Source: a virus | DNA: 29,962 nt | Reading direction: 5' to 3' (one strand) | Virus record (IMG/VR): IMGVR_UViG_3300038429_000794 | Span: 1 to 29,962 of that record | Shown: piece after piece, positions 16,429 through 23,079 of the stretch | Layout of the letters: every line of letters begins with the position of its first letter | How positions within the stretch are numbered: position 1 is the first letter of the stretch | The notes under the pieces: model-generated | The model's database searches: none | Told to the model about the DNA's origin: nothing | What the model saw: only the letters and a program-made list of their open reading frames with translations | Made by a program: the position numbers and the translations under genes

Positions 16429-16509
16429 CCCGTTAGAAATCCTCATGTATGGTGTTGCTTATCCCGCCAAAATGCTCCGTTTTTCATGTTTCCGGAGATT
16501 TCTAACGGG
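16429..16509. repeat. 81 nt palindrome-bounded element (copy F3, long form)
   Basis: Perfect terminal inverted repeats CCCGTTAGAAAT (16429-16440 and 16498-16509) bound about 57 nt. The interior shares TCCGGA next to one end and a central GATAAGCA (on the minus strand) with the 80 nt copy at 21354-21433. It lies between two small membrane-protein genes. It looks like a tiny MITE or REP-type unit; no flanking target duplication was resolved. Confidence 0.7.
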
Positions 16510-16511
16510 AA

Positions 16512-20063: not shown

Positions 20064-20575
20064 TTCTTTTTACCCACACCATCAATCAGGTCATGAATCT
20101 TTTTCAAATTTTCCTGTGCCTTCTCCGGAGACGGCCGCACTGCGTCCTGAAGTTTTTGCTCCTTATCCCTCGGCACCTTTTCATCACTGCGGGATTTGTC
20201 TTTGCTCTCGCGTTCGGAGATCCCGATCATGATTTTTTTAAGATAGTTGTGATTTTCGAGCGGAGTCTCGAAGTTTTTTTTGATGCAGATATCGAGCGCC
20301 TCGGCAATTCCTGCATGGCTGATCGGATAGGTTTTTTTCTGATAGGAAAATGACTGCGTATCGAAGAGCCGTTTCAATTCTTCCAATAACAACCGCATTT
20401 TTTTAGCTTTCAGACGGAAGGGTGTCACGCCGAAAAGATAACAGTAGCCCATGACGTACTGCGAATATCGAGTCCCGAATGCCGGCAGCATATCAATGAT
20501 CGCCTGCAGATCCGCTTCAAAGTGCATTTCCATAAAATCCAACTCCTTTTTACAGTAGGGACAGTTGAAGGTCAT
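20060..20575 (-). CDS. hypothetical protein with N-terminal CxxC zinc motif
   Basis: Encodes 171 residues from the ATG at 20575, overlapping the radical SAM stop as ATGA. MTFNCPYCKKELDF forms a CxxC knuckle. The middle is helical and aromatic (FGTRYSQYVMGYCYLFGVTP), then basic (LKAKKMRLLLEELKRLF). The C-terminal 60 residues are charged and likely disordered. It has no second obvious CxxC. A DNA- or RNA-binding regulatory role is possible. It is coupled to both neighbours. Confidence 0.6.
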   Translation of the reverse strand: MTFNCPYCKKELDFMEMHFEADLQAIIDMLPAFGTRYSQYVMGYCYLFGVTPFRLKAKKMRLLLEELKRLFDTQSFSYQKKTYPISHAGIAEALDICIKKNFETPLENHNYLKKIMIGISERESKDKSRSDEKVPRDKEQKLQDAVRPSPEKAQENLKKIHDLIDGVGKKK

Positions 20576-21369
20576 CCGACTTCTTCCTCCGGTAACCCCA
20601 GAATCTTTTTGATGCTGTCTTTCCAACGGATTTTGGGATTTTTTTTCAATCTATTATAAAGGTACTCGACATGGTGCCACGATGAAAAACATAAAACATT
20701 GTTGAGAAAATCTATGCCACCCCCTGTAAGCCGTGCGCTATCAACTCTTTTCACGATGTCATTCATTATACCGATCCAAATCGTATCGGTGACCAGCGGG
20801 GAAAGGCAACTGACGAGATCTTCGATGGTATGATCGAGATATGGCTCGCAGGAAACCGATGTCTGAAAGCCTGTATGGAAGGCAAAAGCCAATGCCGCAT
20901 GGCGTTCTTCAAAGGTCGGTGCTCCCGGCTCCCAAAAGGCAAGACTTTGATTTTCCGCGGACCCAATGGTGAAGCGGAAAACGATCTGCTCTTTGAAATC
21001 TGATAATGAAGCGCAAAGTTCCCGAATCACATCCAGATGCGGCTTCGTGACAATCAGGACATTATTGCCGGCTATAAGCCATTGATGAAGTGCGGCAATA
21101 GTAGTATCAATGTGCTCCGGAAAAATATCGTGCGTGGTCGGAAACATGATCCGGCCGGAGAGGTATTTTGGCGCGGCGATGATCAAAGATTTATTTCTCT
21201 TCATCACCACCCATTCCTCGGCTGATTTGATTAAGCCCACGCGCAGGGCGTGCTCGCGGGCATAGCAATACCGGCAATCATGTTTACAACCGACGAAGAG
21301 GTTTTTGCTGACTTCTGCCCATTCACGTGTTCCTGTTTTTCGTTTTTCATTCACCCCGTTAGAAATCAT
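20572..21369 (-). CDS. radical SAM protein (spore-photoproduct-lyase-like)
   Basis: Encodes 265 residues. GCKHDCRYCYA gives Cys28, Cys32 and Cys35 in the CxxxCxxC arrangement that binds the 4Fe-4S cluster and SAM. The following pattern (IMFPTTHDIFPEH, VLIVTKPHLDVI, GASF-like TIGSAENQ, EPYLD) fits the short SplB-related radical SAM proteins found in phages, which lack the C-terminal part of spore photoproduct lyase. The substrate is unknown; DNA or protein modification is possible. The chosen ATG abuts the arm of palindrome F4, with a purine-rich GAGGGGGG 11 nt upstream. An in-frame GTG five codons later is an alternative. Confidence 0.82.
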   Translation of the reverse strand: MISNGVNEKRKTGTREWAEVSKNLFVGCKHDCRYCYAREHALRVGLIKSAEEWVVMKRNKSLIIAAPKYLSGRIMFPTTHDIFPEHIDTTIAALHQWLIAGNNVLIVTKPHLDVIRELCASLSDFKEQIVFRFTIGSAENQSLAFWEPGAPTFEERHAALAFAFHTGFQTSVSCEPYLDHTIEDLVSCLSPLVTDTIWIGIMNDIVKRVDSARLTGGGIDFLNNVLCFSSWHHVEYLYNRLKKNPKIRWKDSIKKILGLPEEEVG

Positions 21370-21433
21370 CGTAAATCATTCCCCCCTCTAGTGCTTATCT
21401 CCCCCGTCGATTCTCCGGAAATTTCTAACGGGG
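21354..21433. repeat. 80 nt palindrome-bounded element (copy F4, long form)
   Basis: Terminal inverted repeats CCCCGTTAGAAAT (21354-21366) and its complement (21421-21433) are perfect over 13 bases. The interior resembles the copy at 16429 (TCCGGA at one end, GATAAGCA in the middle). One arm encodes the first codons of the radical SAM protein, so its start could be hidden in the RNA stem. Confidence 0.75.
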
Positions 21434-21958: not shown

Positions 21959-22281
21959 CAGAATGTCCTTTCAGTTAGATATAAATAATTGATGCTACCG
22001 ATTAATACAAACAGTGACAAAATTACAACTGCAATCGCCAATTCCAGGCTGTATTCCCTGAGCCAATTCACCCCGTTAGAAATCCAATTTCTAACGGGGC
22101 AAGCCCCCATTTTCAAGGTCATTGTCTGCCGGGTTTCTTTCACTTCTTTTTCCAATATCGGCCCTGCCGGTACCGGGACGTCAGGAATAGTAATAGTGAG
22201 ACAAGACCCGTGCTCCAAAACGGTTCGCCTCTCCTGCCTTTTCTCTCTATGTTTTCTCATCTGGCTTTGGCTCTTTTTCAT
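21958..22281 (-). CDS. single-pass membrane protein with palindrome-encoded insertion
   Basis: Encodes 107 residues with AAAGGA 9 nt before the ATG. The first 50 residues are basic and polar (KSQSQMRKHREKRQERR). A membrane segment follows at about residues 81-99 (ELAIAVVILSLFVLIGSINY). The joining residues (PVRNWISNGVNW) are encoded by palindrome F6, as if two reading frames were bridged by the repeat. Alternatively, a GTG just after the repeat could start a 40-residue membrane peptide. Function unknown. Confidence 0.5.
   Translation of the reverse strand: MKKSQSQMRKHREKRQERRTVLEHGSCLTITIPDVPVPAGPILEKEVKETRQTMTLKMGACPVRNWISNGVNWLREYSLELAIAVVILSLFVLIGSINYLYLTERTF
22071..22099. repeat. palindrome CCCCGTTAGAAAT (copy F6, inside a gene)
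   Basis: Perfect 13-base arms (22071-22083, 22087-22099) with a 3 nt loop, followed by CAAGCCCCC. It lies within the membrane-protein frame 21958-22281 without breaking it. Confidence 0.8.
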
Positions 22282-22465
22282 TTCTCAGTTCCTTTAATTT
22301 AGCTGTCAGCGCCTCTGGGTGCACACAATTAGAGTGAATGAGCGTCACACAATTACCTGGATATAATGTCTGTGCCTCCGCATAGAAGGCACATGCCCTT
22401 TGATCATCGAGGTTTTGAGCGCCGCATTGACCGTCAAGTGTGCAAAAATTTATTTTTTCTGACAT
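22247..22465 (-). CDS. small cysteine-containing hypothetical protein
   Basis: Encodes 72 residues from the ATG at 22465, preceded by AAGGAAG. The frame is open much further upstream through the tRNA-like region, but that part is not protein-like. Cysteines fall at about 8, 14, 25, 39 and 47 (NFCTLDGQCGAQNL, RACAFY, GNCVTL, SNCVHP), which suggests metal binding or disulfides. The C-terminus is charged. It overlaps the start of the next gene. It is the first gene after the structured 128 bp gap. No family known to me. Confidence 0.6.
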   Translation of the reverse strand: MSEKINFCTLDGQCGAQNLDDQRACAFYAEAQTLYPGNCVTLIHSNCVHPEALTAKLKELRNEKEPKPDEKT

Positions 22466-22497
22466 GATTTCGGCCTTCCTTACTTTCCTTTTTAGAC

Positions 22498-22523
22498 GGA
22501 GGAGGGACTTAGTCCCTCTCTCC
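22498..22523 (-). repeat. stable hairpin downstream of the tRNA-like structure
   Basis: AGGGACT pairs with AGTCCCT (22517-22511, 22509-22503), extended by GGAG/CTCC. No U-run follows, so it is not a standard terminator. It could define the 3' boundary of the structured RNA upstream. Confidence 0.6.
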
Positions 22524-22527
22524 GGTT

Positions 22528-22591
22528 CCGGTGCGCGACCGCTGCGCCTACAAGATTTCTCCTGTGCGGGATTCGAACCCGCGTCCTCCGG
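22528..22591 (-). ncRNA. circularly permuted tRNA-like structure
   Basis: Reading the minus strand, a complete T arm comes first: GCGGG, loop TTCGAAT, CCCGC (22582-22566). The 3' acceptor-like ACAGGA (22565-22560) follows, then a GAAA tetraloop and the 5' acceptor-like TCTTGT (22555-22550), which pairs with it (one G-U). Next comes a D arm GCGC-AGCGGTC-GCGC (22547-22533) with the GG of the D loop. Finally CCGG (22531-22528) can pair with CCGG (22591-22588) as an anticodon-stem remnant. A 5 nt variable loop AGGAC precedes the T arm. The order is that of a tRNA opened in its anticodon loop and closed at its acceptor end. No anticodon loop, U8 or CCA is present. Confidence 0.6.
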
Positions 22592-22593
22592 TT

Positions 22594-23079
22594 CTATCGG
22601 GCTGAAACGGGATGCTTCAACTCGTACCCAAACTCTTCTTTCGTTTTCCTCGAGGCGCCGATGAGGAGCAGTTTCGCATCCGGCCACTTTTCGATGATGT
22701 CGCGATCCGCGTGCTCCACAGTCCTGATGGCCTCGAAGAATTTCTGCTCTTTCAACCGCTCCACGGCATCCTTCGGGATGCTCACTTTGTCTGCGGTATT
22801 GTGGATAAGGCTGCCGTTGCCGAGTTTCAAAATATCGGTACCGGCAAAGAGATAAGCCCGCTCTTTTTTCATGAGGGCAATGAGTGACTGTTCGGCAATA
22901 GAAAGTGCTTCATGGCTATCGTAGAACAGAGACGCATATTTTTTATCCAAAGCTTCCTGTTCTTTATAAAAACGTGTCTCTACTTTCGCCACTTTAGTCT
23001 TCTGTCTCCGGATGCAATCAAGCAGTGTGTCGGCCTGATGGGCCGGAGAATCAGAAAAGTTCTTTTTGGCCTGGTTCAT
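22594..23079 (-). CDS. gam: Gam-like host-nuclease inhibitor
   Basis: Encodes 161 residues with GGAGGGG before the ATG. A long N-terminal coiled coil (RQKTKVAKVETRFYKEQEAL) is followed by the Gam-family middle segment (LFAGTDILKLGNGSLIHN) and VSIPKDAVERLKEQKF near residue 100. In Mu, Gam dimers bind double-stranded DNA ends like Ku and protect them from exonucleases. The length is near the family norm. It lies in the early region downstream of MuA, MuB and GemA genes, as in Mu-like phages. Its stop is right at the border of the tRNA-like structure. Confidence 0.85.
   Translation of the reverse strand: MNQAKKNFSDSPAHQADTLLDCIRRQKTKVAKVETRFYKEQEALDKKYASLFYDSHEALSIAEQSLIALMKKERAYLFAGTDILKLGNGSLIHNTADKVSIPKDAVERLKEQKFFEAIRTVEHADRDIIEKWPDAKLLLIGASRKTKEEFGYELKHPVSAR

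Follow-up and report, generated by a model that had tools for sequence, protein, structure and literature searches.

In canonical Y RNAs, the 5' and 3' ends form a Y stem that closes the RNA and binds Ro (PMC8394870). The Y RNA tethers Rsr to PNPase, and the tRNA-like domain is described as the PNPase-binding part (PMC8394870, PMC7790460). A crystal structure exists for the tRNA-like module of YrlA, the bacterial Y RNA (PDB 6CU1, cited in PMC8394870), and this half of the molecule has so far been studied as one end of the Ro60-PNPase tether. According to Wolin and colleagues, the YrlA tRNA-like domain may, in Salmonella, act as a competitive inhibitor of an anticodon nuclease by which it is not itself cut (PMC7790460). 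In addition, phage tRNAs can defeat tRNA-depleting defences or evade tRNA-targeting immunity (PMC11555353).

We analysed a stretch of 29,962 nt, IMG/VR record IMGVR_UViG_3300038429_000794 (hereafter the window; positions are counted on the whole of it). It belongs to a Mu-like phage encoding MuA (PHROG 310), MuB (PHROG 296), GemA, Gam, and head and tail genes. Its minus strand carries, between gam and a small gene, an RNA unit whose core we assign with great confidence to the YrlA type of tRNA-like module; this core very probably descends from the YrlA tRNA mimic. The YrlA module itself is already known, and what is new here is a Ro-less variant of it. The features of the locus are the following.

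22594..23079, minus strand: gam, a Mu Gam-like host-nuclease inhibitor gene just upstream of the unit (Pfam PF07352, E 7.7e-15; PHROG 491)
22495..22594, minus strand: whole conserved RNA unit of ~100 nt (tRNA-like module and 3' hairpin), with boundaries common to the ortholog L178:11832-11938
22586..22594, minus strand: first copy of the direct repeat GAACCGGAG, containing the 5' strand of the basal stem (from the sequence; identical in L178)
22528..22591, minus strand: YrlA-type tRNA-like module with basal CCGG/CCGG, variable loop AGGAC, T arm, acceptor hairpin, D arm and A26 (from covariance model R1 and RF02553)
22566..22582, minus strand: T arm GCGGG-TTCGAAT-CCCGC, with T54, T55, C56 and A58 kept in the T loop (from the sequence)
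22550..22565, minus strand: acceptor-like stem ACAGGA/TCTTGT, closed by GAAA (from the fold)
22533..22547, minus strand: D arm GCGC-AGCGGTC-GCGC with G18G19 (from the sequence and R1)
22520..22528, minus strand: second copy of GAACCGGAG, containing the 5' strand of the 3' hairpin (from the sequence; identical in L178)
22497..22524, minus strand: 3' hairpin CGGAG-(A)-GAGGGAC-TAA-GTCCCTC-CTCCG with one bulged base (from the fold)
22247..22465, minus strand: small cysteine-containing protein of 72 aa, downstream of the unit; its homologue abuts gam in the relative L121

Fold and YrlA-type identity of the module

Read 5' to 3' on the minus strand, the element runs GAA CCGG AGGAC GCGGG-TTCGAAT-CCCGC ACAGGA-GAAA-TCTTGT AG GCGC-AGCGGTC-GCGC A CCGG AAC. 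The original prediction had described on this strand a T arm, a six-pair acceptor closed by GAAA, a D arm, a CCGG/CCGG pairing and a 5-nt variable loop. All are present exactly as described, and the four stems appear in both the MFE and the centroid fold of 22495-22594 (-47.4 kcal/mol, z -3.4). A strict pattern, requiring a T stem of 5 bp around a TTCGA loop, an acceptor hairpin of 6 bp, a linker of 2 nt and a 4-bp D stem carrying GG, is found once in the window and in 0 of 150 dinucleotide shuffles of it, which argues against a chance resemblance to tRNA. Among the positions of the tRNA core, T54, T55, C56, A58, G18, G19, G15, C48 and A26 are present. Two tertiary positions are off consensus (A instead of U at 8, C instead of A at D-loop position 21), so the elbow of the window module may be imperfect.

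The extent first given, 22528-22594, covers the module (22528-22591), but the conserved unit is larger (22594-22495) and includes a bulged 3' hairpin that had been missed. No T run follows this hairpin (22497..22524), and it is not called as a terminator. Likewise, the 9-nt repeat reported at both ends is indeed present twice, but its copies (22594-22586 and 22528-22520) run past 22528-22594. If copy 1 pairs with the 3' end, the fold loses 3.6 kcal/mol relative to the MFE; we considered and discarded a conformational switch between the copies, which is possible on paper but 3.6-5.5 kcal/mol less stable.

At gathering scores, no Rfam family matches the stretch. In a relaxed search of 281 bases, YrlA (RF02553) is the best-scoring family by bits (27.8 bits, E 3.6e-4), with a match covering model positions 23-87 of 114, that is, the tRNA-like part without the Y stem. 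The gathering score of RF02553 is 69 bits; as canonical phage YrlA RNAs in the loci L015 and L021 also fall below it, this cut-off does not discriminate. That it misses these RNAs also makes it probable that phage Y RNAs are under-annotated.

A covariance model, R1, was built from 19 hairpin-closed phage YrlA modules collected from IMG/VR by a degenerate T-arm/D-arm pattern, the window being excluded. The six acceptor pairs, without exception, and the basal stem covary strongly in the family. R1 matches the window at 22528-22591 (56.5 bits, E 2.4e-14), over positions 1-65 of 65 with all pairs standard. Because the collecting pattern resembles the window, the agreement in the T and D arms is partly by construction; R1 also agrees with the window outside this pattern, in the variable loop AGG-C, the unpaired A and the basal CCGG. 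The model detects canonical YrlA RNAs a few hundred bases 5' of rsr in L181, L187, L188, L190-L192 and L194, and these seven Rsr loci show that it recognises Y RNAs. Tandem tRNA pairs, combining the T arm of one tRNA with the D arm of the next, score with R1 as well; the window has no tRNA.

The element had been predicted to be a tRNA mimic rather than an adaptor, with its 3' half before its 5' half. Both points were right: this is the order of YrlA, the matching family, where the succession of T arm, hairpin-closed acceptor and D arm is the rule. The suggested likeness to permuted tRNA genes or two-piece tmRNA, on the other hand, does not hold, as the element has a true D stem, no anticodon loop and no separable acceptor ends. 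We reject the idea that such a gene is processed here into a tRNA-like adaptor, and consider it to have next to no likelihood. It would share the order of the two halves, but the CCGG/CCGG ends have no loop between them, the 6-bp acceptor is closed by GAAA, and there is no CCA. The 4-bp D stem is a feature that tmRNA lacks, the scores obtained with tmRNA models, 15.8 and 10.5 bits, stay below the cut-off of 47, and ARAGORN calls neither a tRNA nor a tmRNA in the window.

Ortholog, distribution and insertion at the gam junction

An R1 search of genomes carrying MuA relatives was swamped by tandem tRNA pairs and was filtered by length (~64 nt without insert). It gave one short match, in the Deltaproteobacteria MAG G002, where a Mu-like prophage of the same kind as the window (L140) is present too. 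This near-identical ortholog, at positions 11832-11938 of contig C273 (L178), reads GAACCGGAGGTTG GCTGG-TTCGAAT-CCAGC ACAAGA-GAAA-TCTTGT TG GCGC-AGCGGTA-GCGC A CCGG AAC CGGAGGG-C-AGGA...TCCT-CCCTCCG TC. It has in common with the window all 19 module pairs, the GAAA loop, both 9-nt repeats and the bulged 3' hairpin. T stem pair 3 is G-C in the window and U-A in the ortholog, and with two sequences and this one compensatory pair covariation within the unit is thin. One G-U of the window's acceptor stem is A-U in the ortholog. Both strands of the ortholog's 3' hairpin, CGGAGGG-(C)-AGGA.../TCCT-CCCTCCG, differ from those of the window, and the pairing is kept. We rejected a target-site duplication as the origin of the 9-nt repeats because each copy is also present within the ortholog and forms part of the folded structure.

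The ortholog starts directly after the CCA of a tRNA-Met. About 3 kb upstream, its contig encodes a full-length Ro60/Rsr (PF05731, E 6.5e-14; PHROG 850), preceded by canonical Y RNAs, and it also carries RecE-like, helicase and resolvase genes typical of phage. As a separate observation, Y RNAs upstream of phage rsr at L178:7166-7293 (+) and L179:1520-1647 (+) are in unpermuted tRNA order, with a 7-bp acceptor bearing CCA, a D arm, a Y-motif stretch replacing the anticodon arm, and a T arm. They look like the circular-permutation counterpart of YrlA.

The unit is very rare. A scan of IMG/VR with the exact ortholog pattern gave no other occurrence, and DNA similarity searches against sequenced phages returned tRNA-type T-arm matches only. 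A more specific model, R2, was built after the tandem-tRNA problem and includes the window, which it matches at 22520-22594 with 104 bits, as a member of its own training set. Among 155 genomes of the class and 395 of the phylum (Desulfobacterota), R2 found no copy outside G002. The original prediction had looked to related phages for conservation of the fold. The Mu-like relatives lack the element, with no full-length R1 match in nine of them (121.8 kb, control set), but the fold is complete in the ortholog, on another phage-like contig. The presence of a ~100-bp unit with sharp boundaries in two unrelated contexts would also be expected of a dispersed palindromic DNA repeat (REP/MITE-like) that resembles a tRNA by chance. 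This explanation is contradicted by the single copy in the 3.3 Mb of G002 and by the 0 of 394 other Desulfobacterota genomes, as well as by the shuffles above, and we regard it as highly improbable.

Two further candidates came up. A looser YrlA-like module (R1, 51.4 bits) lies at L008:220-282 (-), with no clear Y stem and a long 3' hairpin. L008 is another Mu-like phage, with head genes 25-41% identical to the window's, and its module is downstream of a tail gene. L114, considered as a second Ro-less module, was set aside, as it can be read as a normal phage tRNA whose acceptor has 7 bp.

A single-protein Gam search of IMG/VR gave no relatives, whereas a MuA search did, with L121-L123 and L128 at 65% identity. 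These relatives and prophages are located in Deltaproteobacteria/Syntrophaceae MAGs. In both L121 and L122, gam directly adjoins or overlaps the homologue of the next gene. In the window, 128 nt separate the two genes, the unit begins on the final base of the gam stop codon TAG, and a purine-rich AAGGAAAG precedes the next start codon. The tight junction in relatives that have no unit indicates that the unit is an acquired insertion, in gene orientation.

In place of the tight coupling of the relatives, the unit could act in cis to separate gam from the next gene, as an RNase cleavage site, an mRNA stabiliser or a translation insulator. The 128-nt spacing with its purine-rich stretch and the strong local folding would fit such a role, as would the lack of any promoter-like or terminator-like site near the unit on its strand. 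However, the ortholog conserves the unit behind a tRNA gene, an unrelated context, and a simple spacer need not keep T54, T55, C56, G18, G19, A26 and C48. We hold a cis role to be rather improbable.

Other elements were noted in this phage lineage. Directly after MuA, L121:5725-5815 and L122:4436-4526 (+) carry an element in tRNA order (GGGGCGTTAGTAAGCC...T arm...CGCGCCCACTGCCACCA) whose acceptor stem is extended and whose anticodon arm is poor; ARAGORN does not call it at default settings. The two T stems differ by a compensatory change, and the pattern has no other occurrence in IMG/VR; this is a second tRNA-like element of the lineage, unrelated to the window unit. The window itself contains three copies of the inverted arms CCCGTTAGAAAT / ATTTCTAACGGG (16429-16510, 21355-21433 and 22071-22099). 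One copy, located inside an ORF, forms a perfect hairpin of 13 bp around a 3-nt loop, and the others are longer-looped. Absent from all other loci compared, these arms look like a small dispersed palindromic repeat. At 20575-21369 (-), the window encodes a radical-SAM-like protein (weak PF04055; best NCBIfam rSAM_mob_pairB, 8.6e-8).

Absence of the Ro-binding parts

The best helix between the flanks of the window unit has 5 bp, the same as in shuffled flanks (p about 0.8), and the flank helix of the ortholog is no better than in shuffled flanks either (p about 1.0). By the same test, many canonical phage YrlA flanks give longer helices (p <= 0.1). The Ro-binding motif of the stem is GNCGAAN0-1G, as reportedly given by Chen et al. 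in 2014, and the phage YrlA set has a GGTTACTTC-like motif. On the minus strand, GNCGAANG is absent from 22300-22900, and the flanks of the window unit and of the ortholog hold no Y motif. No TROVE gene (PF05731), that is, no rsr, was found in the 29,962-bp record, which may be incomplete. Among ten genomes with related Mu prophages, only G002 has a TROVE gene, on the contig of the ortholog. Since the Y stem and the Ro motif, two defining features, were looked for and are absent, the unit is not to be filed as YrlA proper. It is a tRNA mimic minus its Ro tether, with a bulged 3' hairpin instead.

Such a unit could be a decaying relic: the functionless remnant of a YrlA RNA that has shed its Y stem and is disappearing. 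The lack of both a Ro stem and rsr in the record, the two non-consensus tertiary positions and the rarity of the unit would be consistent with decay. Against this, all module pairs and the hairpin are retained, through pair-preserving changes, in both copies, which lie in different contexts, and exact retention of both repeats would be unexpected. Moreover, the unit and its ortholog lack the Y stem in the same way, so its loss probably predates their split. Functionless decay appears to us an improbable account.

Possible roles and comparison with known systems

We favour, tentatively, a role in trans and without Ro60 as the most likely function. The unit would be an orphan RNA of the YrlA type, namely the tRNA-like effector module from a bacterial or phage Y RNA whose Ro-binding Y stem was lost, acquired as a ~100-nt piece into the gam/small-gene junction. 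It would be expressed within the operon transcript, in gene orientation, possibly as a stable RNA. The T loop docked on the D loop and the T stem stacked on the hairpin-capped acceptor would then present a tRNA elbow. Because the element lacks an anticodon and an open acceptor end, this mimic could not be charged, decode or be cut at the anticodon. Its targets would be host or defence proteins recognising the body of a tRNA, for which it may serve as a decoy or competitor.

A solo tether or trap for PNPase is a possible, if unlikely, reading: the unit might titrate host PNPase or park it on the phage transcript, altering gam mRNA decay. In the Ro-Y RNA-PNPase machine, PNPase is reported to be bound by the YrlA module (PMC8394870, PMC7790460); here the module is intact, stands between two operon genes and is followed by a stable 3' hairpin that could block exonucleases. 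However, the ortholog follows a tRNA and is not between two coding genes. Besides PNPase, the tRNA enzymes TruB and DusA are counted among the proteins that recognise YrlA RNAs.

Returning to the elbow decoy, we raise with some doubt a broader suggestion, namely a Ro-independent phage RNA class made of a YrlA-type mimic and a hairpin only, which would pass from one phage to another as a cassette of ~100 nt and serve as elbow decoys that counter nucleases of the host or immunity directed at tRNA. That the module is kept in a phage without its Ro half implies that the mimic is useful alone. It may offer a small natural tool for asking which proteins see only the tRNA elbow, and whether phages turn tRNA look-alikes that can be neither cleaved nor charged against tRNA-targeting defences or employ them to steer PNPase.

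Compared with known systems, the element shares with permuted tRNA genes of archaea and red algae the order of 3' half before 5' half; unlike them, it has no anticodon loop, separable 7-bp acceptor ends or splice motif, and is not an adaptor. tmRNA, including its permuted two-piece form (RF00023, RF04321), has in common with it the T arm and the tRNA-like shape, but the element differs in having a D stem and in lacking both a tag reading frame and a CCA end, and it scores far under the cut-off. Phage tRNAs that counter tRNA-targeting defences (PMC11555353) share the proposed anti-defence use of the tRNA shape; those tRNAs are intact and chargeable, whereas the window element cannot decode. Phage Rsr/Y RNA loci (L187, L188, L190-L192, L194) bear the same phage-borne module, detected by the same model, but there it lies 100-400 nt 5' of rsr, mostly with a Y stem carrying GGTTACTTC-like motifs. 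The closest likeness is to the YrlA tRNA-like module, with the same order of T arm, hairpin-closed acceptor and D arm, an unpaired A before an adjoining basal stem, a 5-nt variable loop ending in C, and T54 T55 C56 and G18 G19. In contrast to YrlA, the window unit has no terminal Y stem, Ro-binding motifs or rsr in its record; it carries a bulged hairpin 3' of the module and sits inserted in the gam operon of a Mu-like phage.
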